Shown in pieces: positions 692-19,320 of a stretch of DNA of 32,971 nucleotides; the stretch's first letter is position 1, and the number at the start of each line of letters is the position of its first letter. Source of the DNA: a virus. The notes beneath the pieces were generated by a model that was given only the letters and a program-made list of their open reading frames with translations, did no database searches and was not told the DNA's origin. The stretch is from the IMG/VR virus record IMGVR_UViG_3300018839_000004, positions 1 through 32,971 of that record; one strand, given 5' to 3'. Position numbers and translations under genes: made by a program.

Positions 692-703
692 GGCAGGTAG
701 GGT

Positions 704-1180: not shown

Positions 1181-1201
1181 GAATCCAAATAGTCTAATTG
1201 T

Positions 1202-1990: not shown

Positions 1991-2019
1991 GGACCTTAAA
2001 CAGTGTTTAATCTCTGGAG

Positions 2020-4343: not shown

Positions 4344-4349
4344 GGCAGC

Positions 4350-6093: not shown

Positions 6094-6374
6094 TAGTGCC
6101 GTACCTCCTTACCGTTGTAATGGGTGATGAGGGCGATTTTTACGGCAAAGTGTTTTTCTCCCAGGTCGTCCCACAGCAGCAGCACCCCTTTCTCCTTCAC
6201 CTTGTAGCGGAACCCACCGGCGCCTTTGGTGGGCAGGGTGGTGCCGCTTTTGCGCACCCGCTGCTTTGCCCCGGGGGTACCGTCCGTTTTGACGTAGGCA
6301 ATGGAAAAGTAATGGGGCTGCCCATCCCGTACATCCTGGTTAATTTCGGCCAGCACGGCCCTCAGTGTGAACAT
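6093..6374 (-). CDS. Small hypothetical protein, first gene of fourth late unit
   Basis: A 93-residue basic protein, not recognised. It has a beta-rich, Lys/Gly-rich character (YFSIAYVKTDGTPGAKQRVRKSG, then VKEKGVLLLWDDLGEKHFAVKI). The start is an ATG at 6374 within CGCAATTGCCATG. The late-promoter motif at 6421-6436 lies 46 bp upstream, so this is the first gene of the unit that continues through methyltransferase, portal, connector, lysis and tail genes. Its stop overlaps the ATG of the methyltransferase gene. This tight coupling suggests a shared late function, but none can be assigned. Confidence 0.7.
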   Translation of the reverse strand: MFTLRAVLAEINQDVRDGQPHYFSIAYVKTDGTPGAKQRVRKSGTTLPTKGAGGFRYKVKEKGVLLLWDDLGEKHFAVKIALITHYNGKEVRH

Positions 6375-6420
6375 GGCAATTGCGTTTTACTGGGGGCAAA
6401 GCAAAGGCAATTGCTACCTG
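6375..6420 (-). other. 5' leader of fourth late unit
   Basis: This 46-base leader lies between the promoter motif and the ATG at 6374. It carries two copies of GGCAATTGC (6375-6383 and 6406-6414), each built around the palindrome GCAATTGC. No clear Shine-Dalgarno sequence is seen. The paired motifs could be an operator or could affect leader folding. Confidence 0.4.
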
Positions 6421-6436
6421 GAGAGTAGGACCAAAA
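6421..6436 (-). promoter_or_regulatory. Late promoter motif, copy A
   Basis: The minus strand reads TTTTGGTCCTACTCTC. The same block recurs at 9003-9020, 14806-14824 and 19170-19188, always in a gap upstream of a late transcription unit. This copy is 46 bp before the ATG at 6374. The TACTCTC part could be a variant of the Bacteroidota -7 element. Confidence 0.65.
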
Positions 6437-6623
6437 CGGCACCGGTGGCCAGGCCTGGAAATTGTGGGGCGTTTCGCATGGGCGGGAGTGGCAAGTGGCT
6501 CACCGTGAAGGAAAAAGGGTGGCAATTACCCCTAAAAATTCGCATTTGCGCACGTCGAGGTGCGCGCCCTTTACCAATTTGGCAATTGGAAACCGGCAAT
6601 TTTTGCTGAAAATATGAATCAGA

Positions 6624-6663
6624 GGGGTGGAGCACCAGGTGCGGGGGGTGGAGCACCACGTGC
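6624..6663. repeat. Two direct repeats, 21 bp apart
   Basis: GGGGTGGAGCACCAGGTGC at 6624-6642 and GGGGTGGAGCACCACGTGC at 6645-6663 differ at one base. Their starts are 21 bp apart, about two helical turns. They lie just upstream of the small plus-strand frame at 6705 and downstream of the large-terminase terminator on the minus strand. They may be protein-binding sites; nothing else is known. Confidence 0.55.
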
Positions 6664-6704
6664 ACGTGCGTGAGGCAATGGCTCACTTTGCTTAGCTTTG
6701 GGGC

Positions 6705-6788
6705 ATGGAGGACCTGGCAAACACTGTAATTGCCATCGTGCTGCTGGCCCTGGGGTGGCGCCTCATGCGCCGGGTGTTCAAAGTGTAG
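6705..6788 (+). CDS. Candidate 27-aa single-span membrane peptide
   Basis: A short frame on the strand opposite to the late genes encodes a peptide of 27 residues: an acidic N-terminus (MEDL), a hydrophobic helix (TVIAIVLLALGW) and a basic C-terminus (RLMRRVFKV). This topology resembles small toxic or regulatory membrane peptides, such as type I toxins, and small phage lysis peptides. An exact TAnnTTTG element (TAGCTTTG, 6693-6700) ends only 4 bp before the ATG, so any transcript would be nearly leaderless; no good -33 element is visible. No Shine-Dalgarno is seen. A chance frame is quite possible; the evidence is composition and isolation in a 583-bp gap. Confidence 0.35.
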   Translation: MEDLANTVIAIVLLALGWRLMRRVFKV

Positions 6789-6886
6789 CCCAGGGGGGCT
6801 GCTCACTGGGGTAGGCGCGCACGGCGGCCCGCTCGGTTTAGGTACCTTGTCCGGTTCGAGTCCGGCAGGGGCAGCTCCCCCCGGGC
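6788..6886 (+). ncRNA. Structured, tRNA-like element of unknown function
   Basis: GCCCAGGGGGGCTGC (6788-6802) can pair with GCAGCTCCCCCCGGGC (6871-6886), with an A-C mismatch and a bulged T, closing a stem of about 14 pairs. Inside are a D-arm-like GCTCACTGGGGTAGGC and a T-arm-like CCGGTTCGAGTCCGG (6851-6865); ACCA follows the closing stem. The T-arm is separated from the 3' end by too many bases for a normal cloverleaf, and no seven-base acceptor fits. It may be a decayed tRNA, a tRNA mimic or a folded RNA of the phage. The strand is chosen from the tRNA-like parts. Confidence 0.35.
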
Positions 6887-6897
6887 ACCAAAACAAA

Positions 6898-6938
6898 CAC
6901 CCCACCAGGTGCTGCACGTGGCAGCACCTGGTGGGGTG
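6898..6938 (-). terminator. Strong terminator after large terminase
   Basis: A perfect 18-bp stem (6898-6915 with 6921-6938, loop ACGTG) is followed on the minus strand by TTTGTTTT. It starts 20 bp after the large-terminase stop and ends the small/large terminase unit. Confidence 0.85.
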
Positions 6939-6957
6939 GGGGTAGGCGGCCGGCCGG

Positions 6958-8466
6958 TTACCTGCCCAGGAACCTAACTTTGTAGGGTATGGCCTGGCCG
7001 AACCGTGCGGCGTACTTACGGTACAGGATGTTATCAAAGCAATCAGAGAGGTGGGTGGCACGCTCCTGGGCAATGAGCTGGCTCTCGTTACGCTTATCCT
7101 TTTTCCAGTCGGGCAGGATGGGCGTACTCTCTATACTGATGATCACGTACTTGCACGTGTTCTGATTGAGCCGCACGATGGGCAGCCGCGGGTTAGTCTC
7201 GCCCAGGATCTCGTTTATCACCAGGTGCTTTAACCGGTGGTCAGGGTCCAGGCCCAGCTCCATGAGCTTTACCTTCCACCCTGCCTTTATGAGTTTGTCC
7301 TGGATCTGCTGGTAATAGGTTTTATCGTTGCCCGGGTTGCGGTTGTTGCCGTTGCGGTCCCCGTAGATGATGAGCTCCTTGCACTTATGGGAGGCGTAGG
7401 TGCTCACAAACAGCTCACAAAGGGCGTCCACCAGGTTGGTATTGGACTGTTTGACGTACAGGGCGTTTACCACGCGGAACTCCCGGCCGTGCTCCTGGCA
7501 GACGATCATGGAGGTGAATGCGGCGTTAAAGTCCCAACTCGTTTCCAGGGGCCGGCTGCTGTCGGTGTCGTTGTTGGTAGACAGCCAGAGGCCGGCAGCA
7601 TCATCATACTGGTAATAAAACGTGTTGAACCGGGCGTGTTTTTCGGCGCTGAATGCCGGGTAAAAGCAGTTTGGGAGCTTACGGAGGCGTTTGTTCAATA
7701 CCTCCACGTCAAACTCCAGTTTGCTCATTTCCTGCTGGAGGTCGAGGATGTACTCCTCCCCCAGGACCTCCAAATTATCGTAGGCAGTGGCCTCCTGATA
7801 GTAGTATTGCAGGGGCTTCTCCTTCATTAGCTCCTCAAAGTCGTAAACCCACTGCCCTGCCGGCAGCCAGGCCGCGGAGGTGTAGTAAGTGAAGGATTGA
7901 AAGAGGGGATGGGAAAACCGGTGTTTGTTGCCCCGGATCGAGGGCCTGAGAACCTTGCTGATCACCTCCTTTTTCATTAGGGCCGCCTCATCAATGTCCC
8001 CCCCATCATAATTCCCGCCCCGCGCCGTGTCCCCGCCCCGGTCCATGCTGAGCAGCTCCAGGGTGTAGCCATTTATGAAAGTAATGATGTTTTCGTAGTT
8101 GCGGGGCACCTGGTAGGGCTTCACCCAGTCCTCGGGTGGCCGGGTGCATACCACGTAATGCCCGGCCGGCTTTTTCTCCTTTTTGTTGTACTCCTTCAGC
8201 CCGATCTGGCTCCAGGCATCCATTGCGCTGGGCAGCGTCTTGGTGAGGAGCTGGTTATAGGTGAGCCCGGCCAGGAAACGCTTTGCCCGGGGCAGGTAGT
8301 TGGCGCAAAGTCGGTTGTGAATGCCCAGGGTGGTGGTTTTGCCCGAACCGCGGCCCCCCACCAGCCCTTTACGCTTTGCCGGGCTCTGCAAAAATTCCAG
8401 TTGTTTGGCGTTGACGTAGTGCTCCCGGGGAGCCCGTTGGCTACTCTGTTTCTTCGAACTCAACAT
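6958..8466 (-). CDS. terL: Terminase large subunit (ATPase-nuclease)
   Basis: A 502-residue packaging motor protein. The Walker A motif GGRGSGKT is at residues 37-44 and the Walker B DIDE at 157-160, forming the ATPase that drives DNA into the prohead. The RNase-H-like nuclease half has acidic residues at D312 (SWDFN), D370 (YGDRN) and D475/D478 (LSDCFDN). The length is complete. It starts 26 bp inside the small-subunit gene and is the last gene of a two-gene unit closed by the 18-bp hairpin terminator at 6898-6938. With the portal one unit downstream, the packaging role is secure. Whether packaging is cos or headful cannot be read from the sequence. Confidence 0.95.
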   Translation of the reverse strand: MLSSKKQSSQRAPREHYVNAKQLEFLQSPAKRKGLVGGRGSGKTTTLGIHNRLCANYLPRAKRFLAGLTYNQLLTKTLPSAMDAWSQIGLKEYNKKEKKPAGHYVVCTRPPEDWVKPYQVPRNYENIITFINGYTLELLSMDRGGDTARGGNYDGGDIDEAALMKKEVISKVLRPSIRGNKHRFSHPLFQSFTYYTSAAWLPAGQWVYDFEELMKEKPLQYYYQEATAYDNLEVLGEEYILDLQQEMSKLEFDVEVLNKRLRKLPNCFYPAFSAEKHARFNTFYYQYDDAAGLWLSTNNDTDSSRPLETSWDFNAAFTSMIVCQEHGREFRVVNALYVKQSNTNLVDALCELFVSTYASHKCKELIIYGDRNGNNRNPGNDKTYYQQIQDKLIKAGWKVKLMELGLDPDHRLKHLVINEILGETNPRLPIVRLNQNTCKYVIISIESTPILPDWKKDKRNESQLIAQERATHLSDCFDNILYRKYAARFGQAIPYKVRFLGR

Positions 8467-8962
8467 ATTCCCCCCCTTCGAAGTCGTTAGTCATTTGCTT
8501 TTTGAGTGCGGCCGGGTTGGTCGTGAAGGAAATGGGCACGGGAATGAGGAACGTTTTCGGGTCCACCCCGCCATCCTCATCCAGCAGCCGCTGGAGCTTG
8601 GTTACATTCTCCAGGGCCCGGTTGGCATTCATAAAATCCTCGGCCGCTACTGCCTTTCGGTGGATTCGCATGAAGTTCTCCACCATGATCTGCCGTAGGC
8701 CCTCTTTGTCGAGGCTGGCCAGGGCACCGTACAGGGCCACGGCGTCCTGCACAATGCGGTAAGCCTGGGATTCGCTCACCTCATACTCCCGGATGAGGCC
8801 GTGCACCACCTTTCGGTGAGAATAGCCTCCGGAGAGCCAGCCAAAGGCTTTGCGGAATTTCTGGAGCTGTTCCTGCTCCTTTTTGCGGAGTTTGGTGCCG
8901 CTGAAAAGATGATCGCGGTACCGGTCGAGCCGGTCACCCGCGGGAATGAGGTCGGTGCTCAT
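8441..8962 (-). CDS. terS: Terminase small subunit
   Basis: A 173-residue helical protein directly before and overlapping the large terminase. About residues 35-75 hold a helix-turn-helix-like region (HRKVVHGLIREYEVSESQAYRIV), expected for recognition of the packaging site; the C-terminus is acidic. An open frame extends upstream to 9064, but the late-promoter motif at 9003-9020 would leave that start outside the transcript. I therefore chose the ATG at 8962 (MSTDLIPAG), which lies 40 bp from the motif. Small subunits oligomerise and start packaging. The call rests on position, size and the DNA-binding-like segment. Confidence 0.85.
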   Translation of the reverse strand: MSTDLIPAGDRLDRYRDHLFSGTKLRKKEQEQLQKFRKAFGWLSGGYSHRKVVHGLIREYEVSESQAYRIVQDAVALYGALASLDKEGLRQIMVENFMRIHRKAVAAEDFMNANRALENVTKLQRLLDEDGGVDPKTFLIPVPISFTTNPAALKKQMTNDFEGGEYVEFEETE

Positions 8963-9002
8963 TAAAAAGGTGTTTCCCAAAGGTGGCACCGTGCCCAGTT
9001 GC

Positions 9003-9020
9003 GAGAGTAGGACCGAAAGG
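9003..9020 (-). promoter_or_regulatory. Late promoter motif, copy B
   Basis: The minus strand reads CCTTTCGGTCCTACTCTC. It matches copies A, C and D and lies 40 bp before the chosen start of the terminase small subunit, in a non-coding gap. Confidence 0.65.
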
Positions 9021-9044
9021 GGCAGGGGGGAGGGTCGAGGGGGG

Positions 9045-9169
9045 CCAAATTTTATTTCCTGCACCAGGTGGCAGTACTGCCTGCTGGCAGCTCCGCGGGC
9101 GGAATATTATTCGGCGCTGCGGGCGCTGTAGGCACCGGTACCCTGATCAGTGAGGTGCATAAAATTTGG
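9045..9169. repeat. Inverted repeat upstream of terminase genes
   Basis: CCAAATTTTAT at 9045-9055 (followed by TGCACC at 9060-9065) is mirrored by GGTGCATAAAATTTGG at 9154-9169. The arms enclose about 88 bp. The pair stands out as AT-rich in a GC-rich genome and lies directly upstream of the terminase promoter. This is a place where a packaging (cos/pac) site could be, but no direct evidence exists. Confidence 0.5.
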
Positions 9170-9180
9170 TGCTGCAACGT

Positions 9181-9211
9181 CGGCCGCACGTTACGGCCGC
9201 CGCGATCGCGG
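9181..9211. repeat. Hairpin and 12-bp palindrome
   Basis: CGGCCG-CACGTTA-CGGCCG (9181-9199) can form a hairpin. It is followed at once by the perfect palindrome CCGCGATCGCGG (9200-9211). Their role is unknown; they could be protein-binding sites in the terminase-proximal gap. Confidence 0.5.
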
Positions 9212-9225
9212 AATTAAATTTTGTT

Positions 9226-9311
9226 TACTTTTGAAGCCTCCCAACGGAGCCAGCCAGGTAATGGCTGAGAGCAGGGAGCCCGGCCGGGAGTGGCCGGGCA
9301 CTCCCGTTTAA
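9226..9311 (+). ncRNA. Candidate small RNA opposite to late genes
   Basis: An exact TAnnTTTG -7 element (TACTTTTG, 9226-9233) on the plus strand precedes a short stretch with two hairpins: AGCCA/TGGCT, and GGGAG + CCCGGCC pairing with GGCCGGG + CTCCC (stem-loop within about 9274-9305), followed by GTTTAAAGG. No worthwhile frame is present. No -33 element is visible, so transcription is unproven. Confidence 0.3.
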
Positions 9312-9329
9312 AGGGGGGGACACAAAAAA

Positions 9330-9352
9330 GGAGCCCCCAGGTGGGAGGCTCC
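9330..9352 (-). terminator. Terminator of the capsid unit
   Basis: The minus strand has a 9-bp stem (GGAGCC arms, one T-G pair) with a five-base loop, followed by TTTTTTGTG. It lies 29 bp after the stop of the zinc-ribbon gene at 9382 and closes the capsid unit. Confidence 0.85.
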
Positions 9353-9381
9353 GGCATTCAATTCACCTGTTCAACACTCAT

Positions 9382-9702
9382 TTAGATGGGCAGCAGGTAG
9401 CGGATCAGCCTGGCCGTTTTGAGGCCCAGGCTCACCAGCCACCAGTGGAGCCGGTACATTTTTGTAGCCCTCAGGAGCTTCATGGCAAAAACGGGGTCGG
9501 TGCGGATGCGGAGCTGCACCAGCCGATCATTGGGCCAGTCCTGGGAATGGAAAAAATTGCAGGTGGGGCAGTACGGCGTTTTGATGTGCTCCGGGTTGAA
9601 GCTAACCCGGTAACAGATCCAGCACTTTATGCCCTTTCGCCCCCGGTACCGGCCACCGGCGCCCGGGGTGTTGCTGCCCACCAGGTCAAACGTCCGTTTC
9701 AT
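9382..9702 (-). CDS. Small zinc-ribbon-like protein, 106 aa
   Basis: A basic 106-residue protein. It has four Cys in a CWIC ... CPTC arrangement (C-x2-C, 15-residue spacing, C-x2-C) near residues 27-49, expected to bind zinc. A Leu/Arg-rich C-terminal region ends in GLKTARLIRYLLPI. I use the ATG at 9702 (MKRTFDLVG), which overlaps the end of the preceding small membrane-protein gene by 17 bp; longer frames start inside it. It is the last gene of the capsid unit, before a terminator. Zinc ribbons of this kind often bind nucleic acid or stabilise small virion proteins. No family is recognised. Confidence 0.65.
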   Translation of the reverse strand: MKRTFDLVGSNTPGAGGRYRGRKGIKCWICYRVSFNPEHIKTPYCPTCNFFHSQDWPNDRLVQLRIRTDPVFAMKLLRATKMYRLHWWLVSLGLKTARLIRYLLPI

Positions 9703-9892
9703 TGCCCCGGTCTTTGTTGAATTGATCGAAAGAGGCATAAACCTGCTCCATATCACTCATCACCTGGATATGGTCCGCCCGGTACCGGCGCCGCTGGTAA
9801 AGCGTTTGCACGGCCATGCACAAGGCCGCCACCCCCAGAAAGAGGATGGCCAGGCCCTTATAAATCAAATCAATCCACTCGGCCCGGCTCAT
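9686..9892 (-). CDS. Small single-span membrane protein, 68 aa
   Basis: A 68-residue protein with one hydrophobic helix (about residues 11-29, YKGLAILFLGVAALCMAV). A basic patch (QRRRYRADH) and a polar C-terminus follow. Its ATG at 9892 overlaps the stop of the long coiled-coil gene by four bases, which supports translation. It could be a holin accessory or a virion membrane component, but nothing specific is visible. Confidence 0.6.
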   Translation of the reverse strand: MSRAEWIDLIYKGLAILFLGVAALCMAVQTLYQRRRYRADHIQVMSDMEQVYASFDQFNKDRGNETDV

Positions 9893-11109
9893 GCGTCGAG
9901 GGTTTTAAGTTTGGTCTCCACCTGCTCCAGCTCGGCCTCCAGTTGGGCCAGCTTCTGCTGTTTGCGCACGTCGTTTGGGTTCTTTTTGAGAGCCCCGCGA
10001 GCTTTGCTCACCTGGCTCCTCAGGTTGTTGCGGTCCTTCGTAAGTCCCTCTTTGTCGGCCGGCGCCTCGGCCGCCGCGGGAGCTGCCGGCTGGTCGGGCA
10101 GCCGGTTGTTTAACAGGATGTACTCCTTTTGGCTGTTGAGCTCATCCAGCTTACGGGCCAGCGTCTCAATATTATCAACCACCTTTTTGCGTTCGGCGTC
10201 CGTGGCCTGGTCGCGGAGGCTGTTGCTCAGCCGGGCTTTTTCCACGTACACCTGGCTGGCCTGCACGCTGAGGGCCTCCAGGGCACTGAGGACCTCCTGG
10301 GTGGGCTCCTGGCCGCTCTTGCTTACCTGCTCCCTAATCTGCTCCACCAGGCCGGGAAACTGCTCACGGGCCTGATTGAGGGCCTGCTGCACCTCCTCAG
10401 ATGCTCCCATCACTTTGCCCGGATCATCTATCAGCAGGTGGCCAGCGCGCTCCTGAGGGCCTCCCGGGGCCTGGATTGAGCCAACAGGTAGGCCGGCCAG
10501 GATGGGGTCGAACTTTTCAAGCGGTCCCCCGGGGTGGAATGCCAGTTGCATATCCCGATCCAGGGCCGCGGCCTCATCAGTCCAAACCTGTTCAATACCC
10601 AAACCGTTGCCGGCATTGCCCGGCTGGGCCGGAGCACCATCCTCAATAACAAAATCCGTGTTGGCGCCGTGCACCTCATCGGCCGGCGTCCTGATGGCCG
10701 GGGGCAAGCCAGAGCCGGGGAGCTGCTCCCCGTTGGCGCCGGCGCCCTCGGCCTGCTCAGTGGTACCATTTACCACCACTCCCTCAGGTCCTGGAGGGAT
10801 GGGCTGGGCCTGCTCTGATCCGGTGGCCCCTGCCTGCTCACCAGGTGCTCCAGTTTCTCCCGTACCTGCTGGCTCCGTGTGGGGGGGGGTGATGCCGGCG
10901 CCGTCGAGGCCGGCCGGCTGCTCATCGGGGAGAGCCGCCACCACTTTCTCCAGTTCATAACGTAGCTTTTGAGTATTGAACTGATTTTGCTTTTTTGAGA
11001 GGGCAGTAAGGAGCCCTTTGTTTGCACAGTGGGGCCTGAGCAGGGCCAGGCCCTGCTCATAATCGGGCGCCTCGTCGAGGAGCCACTGCTGTATTTTTAC
11101 TTTGCTCAT
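9889..11109 (-). CDS. Virion-associated protein: helical head, Pro/Gly linker, coiled coil
   Basis: A 406-residue protein with three parts. Residues 1-60 form a helical domain (KVKIQQWLLDEAPDYEQGLALL ... LRYELEKVV), of a kind I associate with head-region proteins of Bacteroidota phages. Residues about 65-220 are a low-complexity, disordered stretch rich in Pro, Gly, Ala and Glu. Residues about 230-406 are a coiled coil ending in LEAELEQVETKLKTLDA. The open frame extends upstream only through a TTG codon, so I chose the ATG at 11109. A terminator (11177-11205) and a promoter-like pair (11136-11165) lie upstream, so it may head its own sub-unit. The role is inferred, not known. Confidence 0.65.
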   Translation of the reverse strand: MSKVKIQQWLLDEAPDYEQGLALLRPHCANKGLLTALSKKQNQFNTQKLRYELEKVVAALPDEQPAGLDGAGITPPHTEPAGTGETGAPGEQAGATGSEQAQPIPPGPEGVVVNGTTEQAEGAGANGEQLPGSGLPPAIRTPADEVHGANTDFVIEDGAPAQPGNAGNGLGIEQVWTDEAAALDRDMQLAFHPGGPLEKFDPILAGLPVGSIQAPGGPQERAGHLLIDDPGKVMGASEEVQQALNQAREQFPGLVEQIREQVSKSGQEPTQEVLSALEALSVQASQVYVEKARLSNSLRDQATDAERKKVVDNIETLARKLDELNSQKEYILLNNRLPDQPAAPAAAEAPADKEGLTKDRNNLRSQVSKARGALKKNPNDVRKQQKLAQLEAELEQVETKLKTLDA

Positions 11110-11135
11110 GGGGTGCAACAAGGGGTTAACGGTAA

Positions 11136-11165
11136 GCAAGTTACGAACCCGGGCCAGCTACCAAA
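11136..11165 (-). promoter_or_regulatory. Possible host-type (-33/-7) promoter
   Basis: On the minus strand TTTG (11162-11165) is followed after 18 bp by TAACTTGC (11136-11143). This is near the Bacteroidota TTTG-19-TAnnTTTG pattern. It follows a terminator and precedes the gene starting at 11109. Confidence 0.35.
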
Positions 11166-11176
11166 AAGGGCAAAAA

Positions 11177-11205
11177 AAAAGGCACGTCCAATGAACGTAC
11201 CTTTT
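11177..11205 (-). terminator. Terminator downstream of 66-aa gene
   Basis: AAAAGGCACGT (11177-11187) pairs with ACGTACCTTTT (11195-11205) with one mismatch. On the minus strand the stem is followed by a run of T. It may be partial, allowing read-through to the 406-residue gene. Confidence 0.7.
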
Positions 11206-11245
11206 CCCCTTTATTACGCTTAAAAAATGAATACTTTACTTTGGT

Positions 11246-11446
11246 CTAGCTCACCAAATCCTTCACCGGCTGAGGGGCCCGGGGAGCCTTTACGGGCTCC
11301 ACTTTCTCCACGTACCTGCTGCCGCTGTCGAACAGGAATTTGGCTTGCTGCTCGGTGATGCCCACCAGTGCCACGGTTTGATCCTTGATCACTACCTGGC
11401 CCACGCCCTCATGGTTAACTAGGCGGTAATTTTTCAAATTTGCCAT
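11246..11446 (-). CDS. Small hypothetical protein, 66 aa
   Basis: A 66-residue protein in the capsid unit (begins MANLKNYRLVN). It has a compact beta/alpha pattern with VVIKDQTVALVGITEQQAKFLF, then a basic, Pro-rich tail. The middle resembles short modules that fold against a partner, such as head-joining proteins, but I cannot name it. I chose the ATG at 11446 over the GTG one codon upstream. It lies between the tail-tube-like protein and a terminator. Confidence 0.6.
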   Translation of the reverse strand: MANLKNYRLVNHEGVGQVVIKDQTVALVGITEQQAKFLFDSGSRYVEKVEPVKAPRAPQPVKDLVS

Positions 11447-11470
11447 CACTCAAAAGTTACGATATTAAAC

Positions 11471-12175
11471 CTACGGAACAGCTACCACGGGGATTTCTCC
11501 CTCGTAAAAAAACGGCTCGTTGGCCTGTCCTACCTTAAACGTAACGGTGTACCCGTTCTTATCGGTGAACACCTTTCCGCTGGAGTAGTCGGGCGTGCAC
11601 ATCATGCCCCGCTGCATGGTACCACCCACCCGCTTTTGCCCTTTGCCGTCTACTACAATGATTATACACCGTTGGTTAAGCATTGAGTTCATTACTTTGG
11701 CAATTGCCGGGTTAGAGCCCGGGATATAGCAGCTTGCCGTGATTTCCCAAGCCTGGTTGCCAGCCTCACCGATTGCTTTTACGTTGAGGTCTGAAGTATC
11801 TTCAGCAAATTCCCATTTGGCAAACGCTTTGCCAGGCTTTGGCACAATGGCGCCGGTGATCACCATATCCCCCTCCACGGCCGGGGCGGGAATGCTTTGC
11901 ACGTCCACGGCCCGGATCACGTAAAAGGAGTATTGCCCGCCCGGGTTGCTCCCGCAAAATTCGGGAATGCTGCCCACGGGGATACAGATACCCACCATTC
12001 CGCTCATCACCAGCAGGGCCAGCAGCGGGGCGGCCAGGGTGAGGAGCCGCGGGCTGATTTCCACGGAGAAAAACAGCACGATGAGCAGCCCCAGCACCAG
12101 GCAGAGGGCTGCTAATTTTTTATTGAGGGCGCCGGCCAGCAGGCCCGTGCCCAGCACTTTGGTAAGAGTTTTCAC
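11471..12175 (-). CDS. Virion protein with hydrophobic N-terminal extension, 234 aa
   Basis: Residues 1-65 contain two or three hydrophobic helices (KLAALCLVLGLLIVLFF; LLTLAAPLLALLVMSG). Residues 65-234 are a soluble beta-rich domain starting ICIPVGSIPEFCGSNPGG and ending NEPFFYEGEIPVVAVP, resembling tail-tube or head-decoration proteins of Bacteroidota phages. The frame starts with GTG at 12175; an ATG at codon 57 would give a 178-residue soluble form, closer to what I expect of the family. Either the membrane part is a true fusion or the virion protein starts internally. It follows the capsid gene after a hairpin. Confidence 0.65.
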   Translation of the reverse strand: MKTLTKVLGTGLLAGALNKKLAALCLVLGLLIVLFFSVEISPRLLTLAAPLLALLVMSGMVGICIPVGSIPEFCGSNPGGQYSFYVIRAVDVQSIPAPAVEGDMVITGAIVPKPGKAFAKWEFAEDTSDLNVKAIGEAGNQAWEITASCYIPGSNPAIAKVMNSMLNQRCIIIVVDGKGQKRVGGTMQRGMMCTPDYSSGKVFTDKNGYTVTFKVGQANEPFFYEGEIPVVAVP

Positions 12176-12217
12176 AATTGATAGCTGGAATTGAAGGATC
12201 GAGGAGGAGGAGGAAAA

Positions 12218-12248
12218 GGCGCCCCTGGGCAGTCGAGCCAGGGGCGCC
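12218..12248 (-). terminator. Hairpin after capsid gene, partial terminator
   Basis: GGCGCCCCTGG (12218-12228) pairs perfectly with CCAGGGGCGCC (12238-12248). On the minus strand TTTTCC follows. It begins 12 bp after the capsid stop and could lower expression of the genes behind it relative to capsid. Confidence 0.7.
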
Positions 12249-12260
12249 TCACTTTGCCGG

Positions 12261-13223
12261 TTATGCCCGGTTGTTTTGCCAGATATATTCGGGGAACGCG
12301 TAGTTCACGCCGGCGCGCCAATCGCCCAGCATTTTGAGCTCCCGGTTAAACTCCTGGAAGGTGAGCCGGCTCATATCCCCGTTGCCGGCAGCCATGTATT
12401 TGAAATTGTAGCGGGGGGTGATGATGATCCGCTGGGAGCCCTGGAGGCCCTCCTCCACTTCAAACTTGATGTTGGTACCATCAATGGCCTGCTTGGAAAA
12501 CCCGGTATTGTAGGGCAGCGCGCCGTGCGTGCTCCGGTAATCCTGGTTATAGTAGTCCATCAACGTGGGGGAAATGATGCAAACCATATCCCTCATGCGG
12601 AACCGGTCGGGCACCAGGCTCTTTACTGCCTCAATGGCATCCAGGGCATTGGCCGGCGTGATCACCAGGGCAGCCTGGTCCACGATTTGGGTACCCTTGA
12701 TGATGTTGGCGGCAATATCGTCGGCAATGATTTTGAGGAACCCGTGGTACATATCGGCCGGCTCACTGCCGGCAGAGTTGCGCACCCCGCGGTAAAGGGC
12801 CTCCAGTTGGTCGTCCTCCTTCAGTTGGGCCAGGATCAGCTCAATGAACACCTTTTGATAAGGCAAATCATTGATTTTCTCCGGGTTGCGGTTCTCCAGT
12901 TCGCCCAGGTAGGACTTCCAAAGGGCGTCCATGTCCTCCTCATCGAAGGCCAGATCCACCTTGCACTTTTCCACGTAGCCGTAACGGGGCTCGGGCTTCA
13001 CGGCGTCGGCTTTGGGGTCGAAGGTGTTTTTACCACCAGGCTGGGCAATCTTGCTCAGCTTGATTTTGTTGAGCACCACCCGATCCACCACGTCGGGGAT
13101 GAACTGCACGTAACTAAAGAAGCTGCGATCATCCTTAAACACTTGTTTGAGGATTTCGGGGTTTTTAACCACGTGCCGCTTCAGGTCGGCCGGCACGGCG
13201 GTAAAGTCGAGGGACTTGCTCAT
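12261..13223 (-). CDS. Major capsid protein (HK97-fold type)
   Basis: A 320-residue protein of normal size for an HK97-fold capsid subunit. It lies directly behind the protease-scaffold gene, the standard capsid cassette order. An N-terminal region (FTAVPADLKRHVVKNPEILK) is followed by the body. A late segment (ISPTLMDYYNQDYRSTHGAL ... GTNIKFEVEEGLQGSQRIIITP) fits the P-domain/A-domain style of Bacteroidota phage capsids, and the C-terminus ends in WRAGVNYAFPEYIWQNNRA. It is flanked by hairpins at 13271-13289 (upstream) and 12218-12248 (downstream). It should be the most abundant late product. Confidence 0.85.
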   Translation of the reverse strand: MSKSLDFTAVPADLKRHVVKNPEILKQVFKDDRSFFSYVQFIPDVVDRVVLNKIKLSKIAQPGGKNTFDPKADAVKPEPRYGYVEKCKVDLAFDEEDMDALWKSYLGELENRNPEKINDLPYQKVFIELILAQLKEDDQLEALYRGVRNSAGSEPADMYHGFLKIIADDIAANIIKGTQIVDQAALVITPANALDAIEAVKSLVPDRFRMRDMVCIISPTLMDYYNQDYRSTHGALPYNTGFSKQAIDGTNIKFEVEEGLQGSQRIIITPRYNFKYMAAGNGDMSRLTFQEFNRELKMLGDWRAGVNYAFPEYIWQNNRA

Positions 13224-13270
13224 TTTTAAATTGCTCGTTTTGACGTTTTTTTACTACTGAAAAAGGGGGT

Positions 13271-13289
13271 GGCTGCCGGGCCGGCAGCC
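13271..13289 (-). terminator. Hairpin between protease and capsid
   Basis: GGCTGCCGG-G-CCGGCAGCC is a perfect palindromic stem in the 87-bp gap. On the minus strand ACCCCCTTTTTC follows. It may weaken transcription or stabilise the capsid mRNA; the U-run is too distant for a sure terminator. Confidence 0.45.
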
Positions 13290-13310
13290 GGGCCGGGGGT
13301 ACCGGTGGAG

Positions 13311-14762
13311 TTATTTGCCCTTTGCTTTTTTGATGCGTTTTTGTTCTTCCAGGGCTGCGGCGGCTGCCCGTTCGTTGGCGCTGAGCCCTTCCTCACCCTC
13401 ATCCCACTTATTGCTCTCATCATCGGCTCGGGGGTCCACGGTCGAGTGCTCACGGCGCCACTGCTGGAGGGTGGCCAGTTCCTGCCGGGCCTCAGCCAGT
13501 TGGGCGGTGGTGGTGGTGTTGAGGGTGTTGGCCTCAGTGAGCTGCTGCTCCAGCTCGGCCAGGCGTTGATCACGCTGCTCCAGGGCTTGCTCGGCGGCCG
13601 TGAGGCTCTGCTCAGTTACTTCCTGGTTATCTTCGGCAGCCTGGGCGCCGGTTTTATCGGCAGCCTCGGCGCCGGCTTTAAAGCCCAGCAGGGCCGCAAT
13701 GCGGGGAAATTTCATATTGGAAAAGAAAGAGTTTGCAGGAGGGGGGGTGTCAGCTCCGGGGAGGGTCTCCGCGGAGGGTTTGATGGCAACCGCATGGGCT
13801 GGGGCCTGCTCCGTAGCTACGGGCAGGGTGTCATGGATGGCAGAGGGGCCTGCCACGGCCAGCCGGTGGGCCTCGTTCACGGCGTCCTCCAGGGTGCCCA
13901 CGGCATCCACCAGGCCCAGCTTTTTGGCCTCCTGGCCGCTGTATACCTTGCCCGTCCAGGGGTTGGCATCTTTGGCCAGCTTATCCCCGCGGCCCTTTTT
14001 TACCGCGGAAATAAATGTCTCGTGGATGGTGTCGAGCTGTTTGGTGTACTCGGCAATGAGCTCATCGGTAAGGGGCTCCACGCTATTCATGCGGGCCTTG
14101 TCCACGGCTTTGGAGCTTCTCAGGATGGTGATTTTCTGGCCCATCTTTGCCAGGAACTCCTGGGCGTTGGTGTGGGTGGCCAGCACCCCGATACTGCCCA
14201 CGTAGCCGGTGGTGAGGCTGTTGATGTAGAGTTTGGAAGCCTGGGAGGCCACCCAGTACGCCGCGGAGGCCACAAGTCCATCCCCGTAAGCCACAATGGG
14301 CTTTTTGGAGTTGGCCACCACGCGGGCCAGCTCCTCGGTACCGTCAACGGCGCCGCCCGGGCTGTCCACGTCGAGCACAATGCCCGAAATGTTGGGATCT
14401 GCATTAGCCTGCTGGATCATGCTGATCACCTCCTTAGTGCCCAGGGAGCAGTAACCCCCGTTTTTCAGCATCGTACCCTGGAGGGGGATGATGGCCACCT
14501 TTTGGCCGGTCTGGGGGGAGGCTTTGCCGCTGGCAGCCTGGCCGCTGCTGTACTCATCGGAGAGGGATGCCGGCGCCGGCACGGCGTAAAACATTTGCGG
14601 GAGGCCATCCTCCCCGTAGCGTTCACTACGACGGCGCGAAACCTGCCCCAATGCCGGCAGCAGCTCCTGCCCGGCGTGCAACCGGTCCAAAAGCACCGGG
14701 TACACCATTCCAAAGTATTTCGCTTCTAGCAGCCAGGCATTGGTGGCAAGGATTTCGAACAT
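13311..14762 (-). CDS. Prohead protease (S49/ClpP-like) fused to scaffold
   Basis: A 483-residue protein. Residues about 85-300 form an S49 (SppA-like, phage C-protein) serine peptidase: LDVDSPGGAVDG (SPGG at 134-137), then DGLVASAAYW with the likely nucleophile S166, GYVGSIGV, and a candidate catalytic Lys near 218. Residues about 375-483 are a Glu/Gln/Ala-rich coiled coil (ALEQRDQRLAELEQQLTEA), the form of an internal scaffold. The gene thus combines protease and scaffold as in lambda C/Nu3; a separate internal start for scaffold is possible. It is the first gene of the capsid unit, 43 bp downstream of promoter motif C, and precedes the capsid gene. It would cleave scaffold and capsid tails during maturation. 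Confidence 0.88.
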   Translation of the reverse strand: MFEILATNAWLLEAKYFGMVYPVLLDRLHAGQELLPALGQVSRRRSERYGEDGLPQMFYAVPAPASLSDEYSSGQAASGKASPQTGQKVAIIPLQGTMLKNGGYCSLGTKEVISMIQQANADPNISGIVLDVDSPGGAVDGTEELARVVANSKKPIVAYGDGLVASAAYWVASQASKLYINSLTTGYVGSIGVLATHTNAQEFLAKMGQKITILRSSKAVDKARMNSVEPLTDELIAEYTKQLDTIHETFISAVKKGRGDKLAKDANPWTGKVYSGQEAKKLGLVDAVGTLEDAVNEAHRLAVAGPSAIHDTLPVATEQAPAHAVAIKPSAETLPGADTPPPANSFFSNMKFPRIAALLGFKAGAEAADKTGAQAAEDNQEVTEQSLTAAEQALEQRDQRLAELEQQLTEANTLNTTTTAQLAEARQELATLQQWRREHSTVDPRADDESNKWDEGEEGLSANERAAAAALEEQKRIKKAKGK

Positions 14763-14805
14763 AACACCCCTTTTGTTTGCCCAAATTTGGCAGCCTGGGG
14801 AGGGG

Positions 14806-14824
14806 GAGAGTAGGACGTAAAAGG
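14806..14824 (-). promoter_or_regulatory. Late promoter motif, copy C
   Basis: The minus strand reads CCTTTTACGTCCTACTCTC. It lies 43 bp before the protease ATG at 14762 and directly behind the terminator of the preceding unit (14828-14853). Confidence 0.65.
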
Positions 14825-14827
14825 AAA

Positions 14828-14853
14828 GGGCCCCCGGGGTGGTCCGGGAGCCC
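14828..14853 (-). terminator. Terminator of the fibre/lysis unit
   Basis: GGGCTCCCGG and CCGGGGGCCC (minus strand) form a 10-bp stem with one G-T pair and a six-base loop, followed by TTTCCTTTT. It lies 6 bp after the stop at 14860. The T-run merges with promoter motif C. Confidence 0.8.
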
Positions 14854-14859
14854 TCTGGC

Positions 14860-15360
14860 TTACTTTCTGGAGGCTTTGAAATGCTGGGCCATATCGGTGG
14901 GGGCCTTTTTGTAGGCTTCAGCCAGCAGGTGCACCAGGGCCCAGTATTCGGAGCACGTGCGGGGCTTGTCGTAGGTTGGGCCGGCCCACCAGCCCGTGAG
15001 CCGGTACAGGGGATGCCAGAGCACCAGGCTCAGGTAATCATACCCCCCGTTCCACGCGTCCAGGTCCTCCCGGGTGATCACCGTGGCCGGGTCGCACGGC
15101 AGCACCTCATAAACCCGGTCGGGGGAACGCTCCAGCCAAATCTCCCACCGGGTGCTCCGGCGTGCTCTCCGCTTGCCTCCTCCCCTCATTTCCACCACCC
15201 GCACCACGCCCTGCTCATCCACGTGGATGCCGGCCCAGTGGTTCCAGTGGGAGCTGGTGGCCAGCCGGATGATCCAATATACCCAGGTCAGGGGCCGGCT
15301 CCAGTAAGCCGGGTTGTGCACGGCAATTTGCCAGCCGGTCCGAAAGTCTTTGGTTTCCAT
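14860..15360 (-). CDS. Permuted papain-like (NlpC/P60, YiiX-type) enzyme candidate
   Basis: A 166-residue protein. The order of likely catalytic residues, SHWNHWAGI (His41) with VVEM (Glu57) and, much later, TCSEYWALV (Cys136), matches circularly permuted NlpC/P60 hydrolases of the YiiX type, where Cys comes last. Such enzymes cut peptide or amide bonds in cell-wall peptides or act on lipids. The open frame reaches into the previous gene, but the ATG at 15360 lies 4 bp after that gene's stop and is the better start. It is the last gene of the unit that holds the fibre genes, before a terminator. A lysis or DNA-entry role is possible; the family call is by motif only. Confidence 0.6.
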   Translation of the reverse strand: METKDFRTGWQIAVHNPAYWSRPLTWVYWIIRLATSSHWNHWAGIHVDEQGVVRVVEMRGGGKRRARRSTRWEIWLERSPDRVYEVLPCDPATVITREDLDAWNGGYDYLSLVLWHPLYRLTGWWAGPTYDKPRTCSEYWALVHLLAEAYKKAPTDMAQHFKASRK

Positions 15361-15364
15361 CGTT

Positions 15365-15916
15365 TTACCAGTTGTCCCCGTAGACTGCCACAAATGCATC
15401 CGTAACCACAAAGTGATAAGGCTTATCAGAAAGGCCCAATTTTCGCCGGATGCCCTCCTCAATCATCTCCTCAATCCCGGGCCGGGGTTCGGGGTTGAGT
15501 TTTGAAAAATGCCACCAGAGCACGGCCTGGAGCTCTCCCACCGTGCGCTGCACCTCCACGGGCTCCAGCAGCGGGTGGGCATGGTGGGGGTAGGTGTCCC
15601 CGGTTTCGTCGGTAACCATCCAGAACAGGAGGTTTCCGGCCTCATCCCGGGCCTGCCGCATTTCCACCCGGGTGATGGGGGTAAAGGTTTCCGTGCCATC
15701 GGCTGCCACCTGCCGGTGCACGGCCGGCAGCCGGGTGGTATCATCCACCTGCATGGGTTTATACTTGCCCAGGTCTACGGTGGGGCTCATGCCTGGCTGC
15801 TCTACGCGTTCGTGCACGTGGATGAGGATATTGGCCTCCCCATCAAAATAAAGTTTGGCCGGCGAGGCAATAAAGGTGATGGCCTGGCCTTGCTGGGAAA
15901 TCGGTATTTTTATCAT
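15365..15916 (-). CDS. Hypothetical protein of the fibre region, 183 aa
   Basis: A 183-residue soluble protein starting MIKIPISQQGQ. The first half is beta-rich (AITFIASPAKLYFDGEANILIHVHE); a later VGELQAVLWWHFSKLNPEP stretch is helical. The ATG at 15916 overlaps the stop of the LamG gene as ATGA, so I prefer it to the longer frame from 15955. Its place right behind a LamG-type receptor-binding protein suggests a fibre chaperone or accessory virion protein. No family is recognised, so this is inference from neighbours. Confidence 0.6.
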   Translation of the reverse strand: MIKIPISQQGQAITFIASPAKLYFDGEANILIHVHERVEQPGMSPTVDLGKYKPMQVDDTTRLPAVHRQVAADGTETFTPITRVEMRQARDEAGNLLFWMVTDETGDTYPHHAHPLLEPVEVQRTVGELQAVLWWHFSKLNPEPRPGIEEMIEEGIRRKLGLSDKPYHFVVTDAFVAVYGDNW

Positions 15917-16749
15917 AACGTAATGATGGGATTGCGCGTAAAATGGTCGCACCAAGCGGTTTGCCCGCTTTGGGGCTGGCCGCCGGCCGCCACCTGGGCA
16001 TCGGTGTAATTAGTGAGGGAACCGTTTTGAAAAGTGGCAAGGCCCGGGTTGTAGGTGTTGGCGTAATCGTTGACCACCCGGCCGTTTTTTTCATTGAAAA
16101 ACCAATAGGCTTGTATGCTGCTCCAGGTAGATTCGGGAGGTGGGGCGCCGTTGCCGGAGTTGTAAAGGGCCGCCACCTGGGCATCGGTCAAACCCTGGTT
16201 AAAAACGATATAATCATCCAGGTACCCGTCAAGCGAACGGCCCAGCAGGAGGGCGGCCGTGTTGGTCATGTTGGGATCATTGATTACTCCCCCCTGAGGG
16301 TTCAATCGGAGTACGCCATTTACAAATAGCTTATAGGCGCCCGTGTTGCCGTTTGCTCCTGAGAGGCCCCGGGCAATTCCATCCCTGGAATAAACTAAAT
16401 GCACCCACTGATTGGGGGCAATGGTGTTTGATGCGTTTAAATCAAATAACTGATTACCATTGAAAATAACCCGGAAAAATGCCGCTCCCATTGCTGTGTT
16501 GGAGTTGCCGGCAATCAGGAAGTTGATACGTGCCTGAGTCGTAACGCCGGGGTCTTTAATGAGTAGATCATGGTTAAAGGTCACGGCGAGGGGATAGGCC
16601 CAAATGGAAAAGGCAAAATCCCCCACCCCAAAGTTGAATTTGCCGTTTTGGTTGATGCTCACGCTGGTGCTTTGCGACCTGAACAACCGGAGGCAATTCT
16701 CGAATGAGTAGAGGTATTTTGCCCGTTGGTAAACCCTTCTTTTTCTCAT
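15913..16749 (-). CDS. LamG/concanavalin-like adhesin, likely receptor-binding tail protein
   Basis: A 278-residue protein whose residues about 35-235 read as a LamG/laminin-G-like jelly roll: FGVGDFAFSIWAYPL, then PNQWVHLVYSRDG, KLFVNGVL, and GYLDDYIVFNQGLTDAQVAAL, the typical closing strand and helix. These domains bind carbohydrates or proteins and are common at phage tail tips. The last ~45 residues contain WSSIQAYWFFNEKNG and an NYTDAQVAAGG echo of the LTDAQVAAL motif, which may reflect a partial repeat. It follows the 409-residue fibre-type gene by 12 bp. It is a good candidate for host recognition; the ligand cannot be told. Confidence 0.8.
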   Translation of the reverse strand: MRKRRVYQRAKYLYSFENCLRLFRSQSTSVSINQNGKFNFGVGDFAFSIWAYPLAVTFNHDLLIKDPGVTTQARINFLIAGNSNTAMGAAFFRVIFNGNQLFDLNASNTIAPNQWVHLVYSRDGIARGLSGANGNTGAYKLFVNGVLRLNPQGGVINDPNMTNTAALLLGRSLDGYLDDYIVFNQGLTDAQVAALYNSGNGAPPPESTWSSIQAYWFFNEKNGRVVNDYANTYNPGLATFQNGSLTNYTDAQVAAGGQPQSGQTAWCDHFTRNPIITL

Positions 16750-16761
16750 GTTGGCGGCCCG

Positions 16762-17991
16762 TTAGTAAGTGAATTCTACCAGCACGTACCCGCGGTTTTG
16801 CCCCGCTTGAAAGACGACATTGGCCTCAATAGTGTAGTTGAGGGCCTGGGCCGCCGTTAGGGCAGCCACGGCCGCATTCAGGTTAGCCACCCCGGAAACG
16901 GGTGCCCCCCCGTTGATGTGAAAACTAACGGAGGCAATGGTGGCCCCCAGCGTGATGGCTGAGGCTGTTACGCGGCGGTTAAAGACGGTTCCCGCCGTGG
17001 TGGCAAGGCCCGCGTAATCGGTGGCCCACTCCCACCTGAGGCCCTCGGCCGCGTTGGCCACGGCATAGCGGGAGAGCTTGCCAAAGAGTTGGAGAAACGT
17101 ATCCGTGTGATGAGGCTGGCCCGGCAGGTTTACATCCAGGCCCGTGGCCGTTATGCCCCTGACCGTGGCGGCAATACCCTCCATAAACGCCTTTATTTTG
17201 CCAAATGCCTCTTGGATTGAATCCGTTTCCAGCAGCCCCCCCAGCAGATTGCCCAGGCCCGTAAGCCGCTTGCCCAACACGGCCGCCCGGGAGAGCACAA
17301 TGGCCGATAAGGTGCCCGACGCCTCACCCCCCACGGGGGGATCAGCCGGGGCAGTACTCCCCCCGGCAATGAGCACCCACCGGCCTGGGCCCGTGGTGGG
17401 GATGATCACTTCCTCATCATCGGCCACCTGGGCAGAATCCCGGTGGAGGGCAAACAGTTTTTTGAGCCCCTTTACGTAGATGAACCCACGATCCGGCCAG
17501 TCCTGGCTGGCCGTGGTGTCCAGGGCTTTGAGGCTGGCCAGGTCGTGGGTGGGATTGAACACCACCCCACGATCCATTTTGAGCAGGATCTGGCTCATGG
17601 CTGAAAAAATGGCATCGGCCGTAAGGGTGGCGCCGTTGGTGCGCCGGAGAGCCGTATCCGTGTTTGGCAGGTGGCTGGGGGAGAGTTCAAACCAAAAGGC
17701 ATTTTCTGCCGGCACCCTGTTGGCGTTGTCGTTTACCTTGCTCTGCCAGAACTTGCTGCCGTGCGTCACCTGGTCACCGGCCCCGTACACCAGGTTGGAG
17801 GCCCACGGTGCTATGGCATCGGCCTGGTCCTCCGGAAAGGGTATTTTGTCCTCCTGGATGTTCCAGGAGGAAATGATCAGTTTACGGATGATGTCCCGGG
17901 CCTGGGCCGGGGTTATCATTTCGGTGATGTTGTCCTGGAATATCAGATCAGCCAGGGCCAGCAGGGCCTGCCGGTTGAGTTGTTCGCTCAT
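16762..17991 (-). CDS. Tail fibre-like protein with carbohydrate-binding-like module
   Basis: A 409-residue protein. Residues 1-55 are a helical N-terminus likely to attach to the virion. Residues about 65-105 (WASNLVYGAGDQVTHGSKFW ... AFWFEL) have the W-x-Y-x-x-GD-x-V ... W spacing of chitin-binding-type CBM5/12 modules. The rest is Ala/Thr/Gly-rich with beta-strand and helical segments, ending in AGQNRGYVLVEFTY. The gene starts in an ATGA overlap with the 186-residue gene and is followed by the LamG gene. Together these form the receptor-binding end of the phage. The fibre call is inferred from composition and place. Confidence 0.7.
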   Translation of the reverse strand: MSEQLNRQALLALADLIFQDNITEMITPAQARDIIRKLIISSWNIQEDKIPFPEDQADAIAPWASNLVYGAGDQVTHGSKFWQSKVNDNANRVPAENAFWFELSPSHLPNTDTALRRTNGATLTADAIFSAMSQILLKMDRGVVFNPTHDLASLKALDTTASQDWPDRGFIYVKGLKKLFALHRDSAQVADDEEVIIPTTGPGRWVLIAGGSTAPADPPVGGEASGTLSAIVLSRAAVLGKRLTGLGNLLGGLLETDSIQEAFGKIKAFMEGIAATVRGITATGLDVNLPGQPHHTDTFLQLFGKLSRYAVANAAEGLRWEWATDYAGLATTAGTVFNRRVTASAITLGATIASVSFHINGGAPVSGVANLNAAVAALTAAQALNYTIEANVVFQAGQNRGYVLVEFTY

Positions 17992-18548
17992 CGTCTACGG
18001 AAACCAAAGGTGAAACCGGGGTTGAAAACTTTACGGGTGCCGGCCGGGGGCACTTCAAACATTCCGTAAAACAGGGCTTTGTGGCTGCATTCGCCGTTAA
18101 AAGTCAATTGGTGGCCATTTTTGCCACTTGCGCCCTGGCCCGTCTCCAGCTTGTGGGAGAACCTCAGGGGCTGCCGCTTGCTGCCGATCAGCTTGCAAAC
18201 GCCGTTACTGTCCATGTAGAGAGCCAGGCACCGGATGCCGGTTAACCGGTCCATCCAGTGCCCGGCGTCGGGCGTGTCACGGGGCACCCAGAGGGAAAGG
18301 CTTTGTTTGAGAAAGTCCCCGTGCTCAGTTTCCTGGTGCTGCTCCTCGTACCCCCCGGCGTCGGGTGCAAAGACAATATCCAGGTAATTGCTCCCGTCCA
18401 CCAGTTCCAGCTCCTGGAGCACGTTGTGGCGGGAGCTGGGGGGCATGGCCACCAGGTTCTCAGCCGGCAGGATACGCACGTAATCCAGGCCGCCCAAAAC
18501 GCCCCCGCACACGCCGTACAGGCCGGTGATGCCCCCCAGGTCGATCAT
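17988..18548 (-). CDS. Conserved hypothetical late protein, 186 aa
   Basis: A 186-residue, probably soluble protein. It begins MIDLGGITGLYGVCGGVLGG; later parts include LELVDGSNYLDIVFAPDAGG, FLKQSLSLWVPRDTPDAGHW and a C-terminus rich in aromatic and basic residues (KVFNPGFTFGFRRR). It looks like Bacteroidota phage structural proteins encoded between tail and fibre genes. Both ends overlap neighbours by four bases, so it is translated with the transpeptidase-like gene upstream and the fibre-like gene downstream. No catalytic motif is seen, and the exact role is unknown. Confidence 0.65.
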   Translation of the reverse strand: MIDLGGITGLYGVCGGVLGGLDYVRILPAENLVAMPPSSRHNVLQELELVDGSNYLDIVFAPDAGGYEEQHQETEHGDFLKQSLSLWVPRDTPDAGHWMDRLTGIRCLALYMDSNGVCKLIGSKRQPLRFSHKLETGQGASGKNGHQLTFNGECSHKALFYGMFEVPPAGTRKVFNPGFTFGFRRR

Positions 18549-19141
18549 GCCAGGTCTGCCTCCTCCAGCAGGGTATAACTGAACCGGTTGCGCCGTAGCT
18601 TTACGGAGGCCTGGCAGAGGGCAATTACTTTGCCGTAGCTCACCGGGTTTTGCACAACCTGGCAGCCGGCAGAGTAGGGGCCCACCAGTTCCAGCTCCAG
18701 GGTGGAGTGGGCCCGGTGGAACTCGATCCCGAACAAACCGGTAACCTCCTTTAGGGGGCCATCCAGCAGGGTGGTGTTTTTGTTGTTGTCCCTCCAGCCG
18801 CTCACCGGCGCCACCTGGTCCAGGGCCACGTACTTGCCTTTATGTGAGCCCAGGGCCCACAGGTCCAGGTGCTGGCCCGGCTTTAGGATGAACGTGCCGG
18901 CAGGGTCCAGGGGCTTTAACAGGTAGTTTGCCCCCGGGTCGGTGGTGCCTTTGTAAATTGAAAAAATTTGCTTGCCGGCATCATCCTTACAGGCAATGAC
19001 AAATAAATCATCGAACCGGTTAGCCTTTCGCTCCTTACTCCGAATGCCGATGATGTTTAAGTGATACGGGCGCCCATCATCAAACCACTGGTAGCCCTTC
19101 TTTGTGAGCACTTTCTGGATTCTTTCTAGCGTTGGTTTCAT
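18545..19141 (-). CDS. L,D-transpeptidase-like cell-wall enzyme, endolysin candidate
   Basis: A 198-residue protein of a type often seen in Bacteroidota phages. An N-terminal YHLNIIGIRSKERKANRFDD and a YKGTTDPG motif (about residues 63-70) precede a C-terminal catalytic-like set: IEFHRAHS (His142) and YSAGCQVV (Ser157, Cys160). This order His ... S-x-G-C resembles the YkuD L,D-transpeptidase active site, so a peptidoglycan-acting role is likely. There is no signal peptide, so export would need a holin. I chose the ATG at 19141: the longer frame would begin upstream of promoter motif D (19170-19188). It is the first gene of the first late unit. Confidence 0.7.
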   Translation of the reverse strand: MKPTLERIQKVLTKKGYQWFDDGRPYHLNIIGIRSKERKANRFDDLFVIACKDDAGKQIFSIYKGTTDPGANYLLKPLDPAGTFILKPGQHLDLWALGSHKGKYVALDQVAPVSGWRDNNKNTTLLDGPLKEVTGLFGIEFHRAHSTLELELVGPYSAGCQVVQNPVSYGKVIALCQASVKLRRNRFSYTLLEEADLA

Positions 19142-19169
19142 GGCTCGAATGTAAGCCGGGCCAGGGCCG

Positions 19170-19188
19170 GAAAGTAGGACCGGAAAGG
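19170..19188 (-). promoter_or_regulatory. Late promoter motif, copy D
   Basis: The minus strand reads CCCTTTCCGGTCCTACTTTC. It lies 28 bp before the ATG at 19141, between that gene and the terminator of the early operon. It is the only copy with TTTC instead of CTC and the only one with iterons beside it. Confidence 0.65.
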
Positions 19189-19203: not shown

Positions 19204-19240
19204 AAAAAAGTGCCTCCCTGCTTTGGAAAGGCACTTTTTT
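19204..19240. terminator. Bidirectional terminator between early and late genes
   Basis: AAAAAAGTGCCT (19204-19215) pairs perfectly with AGGCACTTTTTT (19229-19240). Both strands end in six T, so it can stop transcription from either side. On the minus strand it closes the early operon just before promoter motif D. Confidence 0.85.
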
Positions 19241-19242
19241 GG

Positions 19243-19320
19243 TGGACCCATTCGGGAGTTTTCCGGACCTAAACGGGAATTAATGGACCCATTCGGGAGA
19301 TTCCTGGACCCATTCGGGAG
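19243..19320. repeat. Four phased iterons, consensus TGGACCCATTCGGGAG
   Basis: Three exact copies of TGGACCCATTCGGGAG start at 19243, 19284 and 19305. A diverged copy (CGGACCTAAACGGGAA) is at 19264-19279. Start-to-start spacings are 21, 20 and 21 bp, about two helical turns, so bound proteins would face the same side. They lie upstream of promoter motif D and directly downstream of the gene at 19330-19791. Confidence 0.85.

Follow-up and report, generated by a model that had tools for sequence, protein, structure and literature searches.

The window, by which we mean the whole stretch of DNA analysed here, is a viral contig, 32,971 bases long. Open reading frames were called with a simple script. 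The record is probably incomplete, because the metagenome contig L005, 99.8% identical to positions 1-11067 of the window, runs about 3 kb beyond its first base. Four late units are encoded on the minus strand. Unit 1 starts with a gene for a 93-aa protein (6093-6374), upstream of a methylase gene and the portal gene (4350-5666; its product clusters with the Leef_1 portal protein). Unit 2 starts with the presumed small terminase gene (8441-8962), which precedes that of the large terminase subunit (TerL; 6958-8466), and unit 3 with the gene for the head maturation protease (13311-14762; phrog_53, 8e-64), after which comes the presumed major capsid protein (12261-13223; clustering with Leef_1 gene 42). 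The first gene of unit 4 (18545-19141), predicted to be leaderless, matches phrog_3000 and an endolysin family. Also on the minus strand is the gene of P1 (19330-19791), a 153-aa protein and candidate late activator with homologs in all the full-length box-bearing phages examined. Elsewhere are found a tyrosine integrase (28433-29611), an adjoining plus-strand HTH_19 protein (27627-28160) that is possibly a lysogeny repressor, and a minus-strand invertase-like serine recombinase (30545-31159). A tRNA scan of the window found none.

The block GTCCTACTYTC occurs four times in the window, only on the minus strand, always in an intergenic region and each time upstream of a late unit, and none of 100 shuffles reached four copies. 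When up to three mismatches are allowed, the longer form CTTTYNGGTCCTACTYTC is matched at exactly four places (6421-6438, 9003-9020, 14806-14823 and 19170-19187), all intergenic, on the minus strand and with no more than one mismatch each, while dinucleotide shuffles contained 0.29 matches on average and two at most. The 11-mer GTCCTACTCTC is confined to the same four sites at up to one mismatch and is found at four further places, elsewhere in the window, at two. The motif scan and the shuffles thus confirm the claim of the first-pass annotation that the block lies at exactly four intergenic minus-strand places, and the distances it gave to the first start codons, 46, 40, 43 and 28 bp, are exact (ATG at 6374, 8962, 14762 and 19141). 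Three of the terminators that it had placed between the units, all on the minus strand, are found by a hairpin scan, namely those after TerL (6898-6938), upstream of unit 2 (9330-9352) and immediately 5' of site 3 (14825-14856); the fourth, a terminator-like long inverted repeat immediately 5' of site 4 (19204-19240), is called only partly. Between this repeat and the end of the P1 gene, four GGACCCATTCGGGAG-like repeats are arrayed on the plus strand (19244-19320) at spacings of 21, 20 and 21 bp, or two helical turns, an arrangement that is operator- or iteron-like.

What had been missed is that each block is followed, at a fixed spacing, by a -7 box of the host type, always on the minus strand and matching five of the six specified bases of TAnnTTTG. 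At site 1, which heads the unit between TerL and the portal gene, the late box GGTCCTACTCTC (6421-6432) is followed 27 nt past its G by TTGCTTTG (6397-6404; predicted +1 at 6392). At site 2, heading the terminase unit, the same GGTCCTACTCTC (9003-9014) is followed after 28 nt by CACCTTTG (8978-8985; predicted +1 at 8973). The distance is again 27 nt at site 3, ahead of the protease/capsid unit, from CGTCCTACTCTC (14806-14817) to CAAATTTG (14782-14789; predicted +1 at 14777), and at site 4, ahead of unit 4, from GGTCCTACTTTC (19170-19181) to TACATTCG (19146-19153). The predicted +1 of site 4, 19141, is the A of the ATG, a leaderless geometry that had likewise been overlooked. A -7 box with at least five of the six bases within 1 nt of offset 27 has a chance of 0.0097 per position in the window, which for all four sites gives about 1e-8 if they are independent, although none of the four boxes is perfect and the spacing at site 2 is 1 nt off. 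Matches to sigma-70 TTGACA/TATAAT promoters in the window are near chance level.

Probable promoter geometry shared with related phages

Scans with single terminase and protease proteins recovered only L005, which is near-identical to the window and is therefore not counted as independent, and close database relatives by TerL are few. With a four-sequence TerL alignment, 28 loci were recovered from bacterial genomes and 80 from viral contigs; the TerL proteins of related phages with the same arrangement are 26-45% identical. When repeated intergenic words were sought de novo, with no seeding by the window motif, words of the TGTCCTATTTTA or TGTCCTTTTTTA type came out on top in 7 of the 12 relatives tried (L043, L045, L074, L011, Leef_1, L010 and L068), and GTCCTACTCTC of the window is a G+C-rich version of these words.

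From the relatives, 126 distinct plus-strand intergenic GTCCTWYT sites were stacked without gaps, with offsets counted from the first G. A second element stands out at offsets 27-34 (T 48%, A 90%, n, n, T 86%, T 98%, T 76%, G 66%), and by its sequence it is the Bacteroidota -7 box TAnnTTTG. Of the 126 sites, 83 match at least five of its six bases at offset 27, and no other offset between 10 and 51 has more than 4 such sites; with a cut-off of four bases the box is found in 110/126 sites versus 18/116 of the opposite-strand copies. Promoters of the Bacteroidota primary sigma factor consist of TTTG at -33 and TAnnTTTG at -7 (PMC9723704, PMC7366714). The phage sites share with them the -7 box and its distance to +1 and differ in having no TTTG at -33 (0 of 126 sites at offsets 0-4), where they carry a TGTC-type phage box instead. 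The first-pass annotation, which held that the block is not the host promoter and may define a late promoter class of its own, is therefore right in part: the -33 TTTG is indeed missing and the block is conserved in relatives, but the block is only the upstream half of the promoter, the downstream half being the host -7 box.

Because the -7 box of F. psychrophilum spans -12 to -5 (PMC9723704), offset 39 corresponds to +1. An ATG lies exactly there in 35 of the 126 sites, whereas in hosts transcripts with no leader or a very short one are rare, at 3.7% for B. thetaiotaomicron (PMC7366714) and 5.5% for F. psychrophilum (PMC9723704). In the sites that are not leaderless, A is also the commonest base at offset 39 (38/74). 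Across 17 phage genomes, the boxes head protease-capsid, terminase, portal and neck-tape measure units; those of the window head the first three and a fourth unit of its own. Even in MZ447863, where the units come in a different order, boxes are found at the head of the portal and protease units. A dedicated class of late promoters, conserved in relatives ahead of their capsid and terminase units, which is the check that the first-pass annotation had proposed, is thus strongly supported, and the arrangement, as judged from these genomes, is not peculiar to the phage of the window but common to dozens of Bacteroidota phages. MZ447863 itself (L007/L152) is deposited as Microcystis phage Mea-Yong924-1; its late promoters are of the Bacteroidota type and it encodes a homolog of P1 (QXN68052.1), and its true host is probably a member of the Bacteroidota living with Microcystis rather than the cyanobacterium.

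These results make it very probable that the block forms the upstream half of a promoter for late genes. In the layout that we propose, the G of GTCCT would be at -39 and the phage box at about -40 to -29, followed by a spacer of about 16 bp, the host -7 box at -12 to -5 and the start at +1, which often coincides with the A of the ATG. As the downstream half is the primary-sigma -7 box, the host RNA polymerase with its primary sigma factor is probably used, recognising this box, and only the -33 element would be replaced. Transcription would begin at the predicted +1 and would be late, and the hairpins preceding the boxes would keep every unit under its own box.

A block that is sequence-specific and lies near the -35 region could also be the -35 element of a phage-coded or host alternative sigma factor. 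We consider this quite improbable and have rejected it, since a primary-sigma -7 box makes up the downstream half, P1 has no sigma-like match, a Pfam scan of 20 window proteins, most of them encoded in the early region, matched no sigma family, and host chromosomes contain no regulon above control: the box pattern shows no excess there over the reversed pattern, and its matches cluster in prophages. Slightly less probable again is that the block, lying near the start of every unit, is a repressor's operator or acts as an RNA-level signal within the 5' leader. If +1 is at offset 39, the transcript begins downstream of the block and would in many cases have no leader; the block also occupies the place of the -33 element at a fixed spacing that a repressor site does not need; its position outside the transcript and its rigid spacing led us to reject both readings. 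The invertase-family recombinase encoded in the window might point to a recombination, inversion or packaging site, to which chance similarity may be added, but hardly any weight can be given to this explanation. The block is not palindromic, is oriented with the gene at its sites and is rigidly coupled to the -7 box and the start codon, and on account of this fixed geometry and orientation and of its recurrence in dozens of phages a recombination site was rejected as well.

P1 as candidate reader of the box

The proposed late promoter with a phage box and a host -7 box raises the question of what reads the box. Inside one phage the box is nearly uniform, and among phages it drifts, the variants including GTCCTTGTCCA, GTAATTTYTT and GTCACAAC, while the geometry remains constant. 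The closest full relative, L038 (TerL 41% identical), has five sites, four with GTCCTTGTCCA and one with GTCCTTGCTCA, and L065 has GTAATTTYTT and GTCATTT; the boxes are GTCCTTTTAA in Ingeline, CATGTCTTAAA in 6H, CATGTCACAAC in laban6-1 and GTCCCA in L079. Across these drifted boxes the distance to the -7 box is constant at 27 nt, except for 26 in 6H. Uniformity within and drift between phages is the pattern expected from a cognate reader specific to each phage. Since the -33 TTTG is missing, recruitment of the polymerase would require an activator, encoded by the phage, that occupies the box and is thereby held at a set position on the DNA; on the best reading, such a factor would be needed, and P1 is the specific candidate.

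P1 is an uncharacterised protein of about 155 aa encoded in all 21 genomes compared, its gene usually lying just ahead of the late module. Protein clustering of 17 genomes gave few universal families, and P1, present in 17/17, is the sole shared protein that is neither virion-like nor encoded in a box-headed unit. Although tblastn detected only close relatives, a profile search found P1 in 60 of the loci, and it is present in every searched viral record longer than 28 kb; records lacking it are fragments. It is found also in four phages of other groups, three Duneviridae and Bacteroides phage BT-TP2, each of the four with a box of its own. Homologs in named phages are gene 39 of Polaribacter phage Leef_1, gene 41 of Cellulophaga phage Ingeline, AGN89423.1 of Flavobacterium phage 6H (laban6-1 is likewise a Flavobacterium phage) and gp8 of BT-TP2, the last (L155, PQ571279) labelled 'transcriptional regulator' by its depositors, with no basis given. 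The unrelated Bacteroidota phages B40-8, 11b, P12002L and FCL-2 have no P1 (best E 0.026) and no TGTC box at the 27-nt-type geometry. P1-bearing loci contain on average 2.67 correctly spaced sites per locus versus 0.06 at shifted -7 spacings. Fewer than two recognisable boxes are found in 12 of 52 such loci, which points either to greater drift of the box in those loci or to a link between P1 and the box that does not hold everywhere; when P1-bearing loci lacking TGTCC were searched for an alternative box, no clear candidate emerged.

Searches of Pfam, PHROG and PDB with the P1 sequence gave no useful match. Two AlphaFold models are confident (pLDDT 89.8 for P1 of the window and 89.5), and neither matched a solved structure, the only significant viral fold match being the Leef_1 homolog; by sequence or fold, no likeness to DNA-binding families was detectable. 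By inspection only, the two C-terminal helices, which carry conserved F, E and R, resemble a helix-turn-helix. When the box type is mapped on the P1 and TerL trees, it changes three times on each and so does not discriminate between them, the P1 tree being poorly resolved. The pairing of P1 with the box is a correlational co-occurrence among related phages, from which we infer, with somewhat more confidence than doubt, that P1 reads the box and recruits the host RNA polymerase.

A less likely alternative, which we nevertheless take seriously, is that the same promoter is served by another phage protein, such as P2, a LuxR-like protein or the KilA-N early proteins, and that P1 has a different role. 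P2, a conserved protein of about 170 aa that is encoded beside P1 (the family of Leef_1 gene 40), is in nearly all genomes, and the LuxR-like protein is in 11; however, the proteins to which P2 is related have genes that follow the capsid gene, and in the window its own gene is part of box unit 4, while G010, G001, MZ447863, G017 and the window itself lack the LuxR-like protein. P1, on the other hand, is kept in MZ447863 even though its gene there is in the early region and no longer adjoins the late module. We therefore retain P1 as the most likely activator, which would be made ahead of the late units and then turn all of them on together. The full explanation, a late promoter with a phage box and a host -7 box that is switched on by P1, we regard as likely on the genomic patterns.

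Relation to known systems and significance

Temperate phages such as Mu and P2 have several late operons, each with a promoter that depends on an activator, C in Mu and Ogr in P2. By analogy, there are several late units here, each with its own predicted promoter; P1, having no useful similarity in Pfam or PHROG, is not a member of the C or Ogr families. At the middle promoters of T4, a system of sigma appropriation by MotA and AsiA, the host -10 element is kept but the -35 element gives way to a phage box whose centre is near -30 (PMC6755090). Here too a phage box replaces the -33 element at a fixed spacing and the host -7 box is kept, and P1 would play a part much like that of MotA. The two systems differ in phylum, in the genes served (late structural genes here, middle genes in T4) and in the box, which is unrelated; the candidate P1 has no sequence or fold match to MotA, and no AsiA-like partner is known. 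The promoter logic is therefore already known from T4 (PMC6755090), whereas the reader, the box, the phylum and the leaderless output have no precedent in the papers searched. How Bacteroidota phages control their late genes appears to be undescribed so far, nothing on it having been found in the same literature. We tentatively suggest, at slightly less than even confidence, that P1 may represent a new fold family of activators that seize the Bacteroidota primary sigma factor by replacing its -33 contact, across several phage families in which the box has diversified (TGTCCTATTTT, GTCCTTGTCC, TGTAATTT, TGTCACAAC, TGTCTTAAA) and the geometry has stayed fixed.

Bacteroidota phages are common in gut and marine viromes. 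For dozens of genomes, the geometry described here predicts start sites to the nucleotide and late mRNAs that are leaderless, and it comes with a named candidate activator, P1, that is present in laboratory phages. It also provides a means of marking late units and prophages in unannotated sequence, and the box promoters may be of use as inducible promoters for Bacteroidota.
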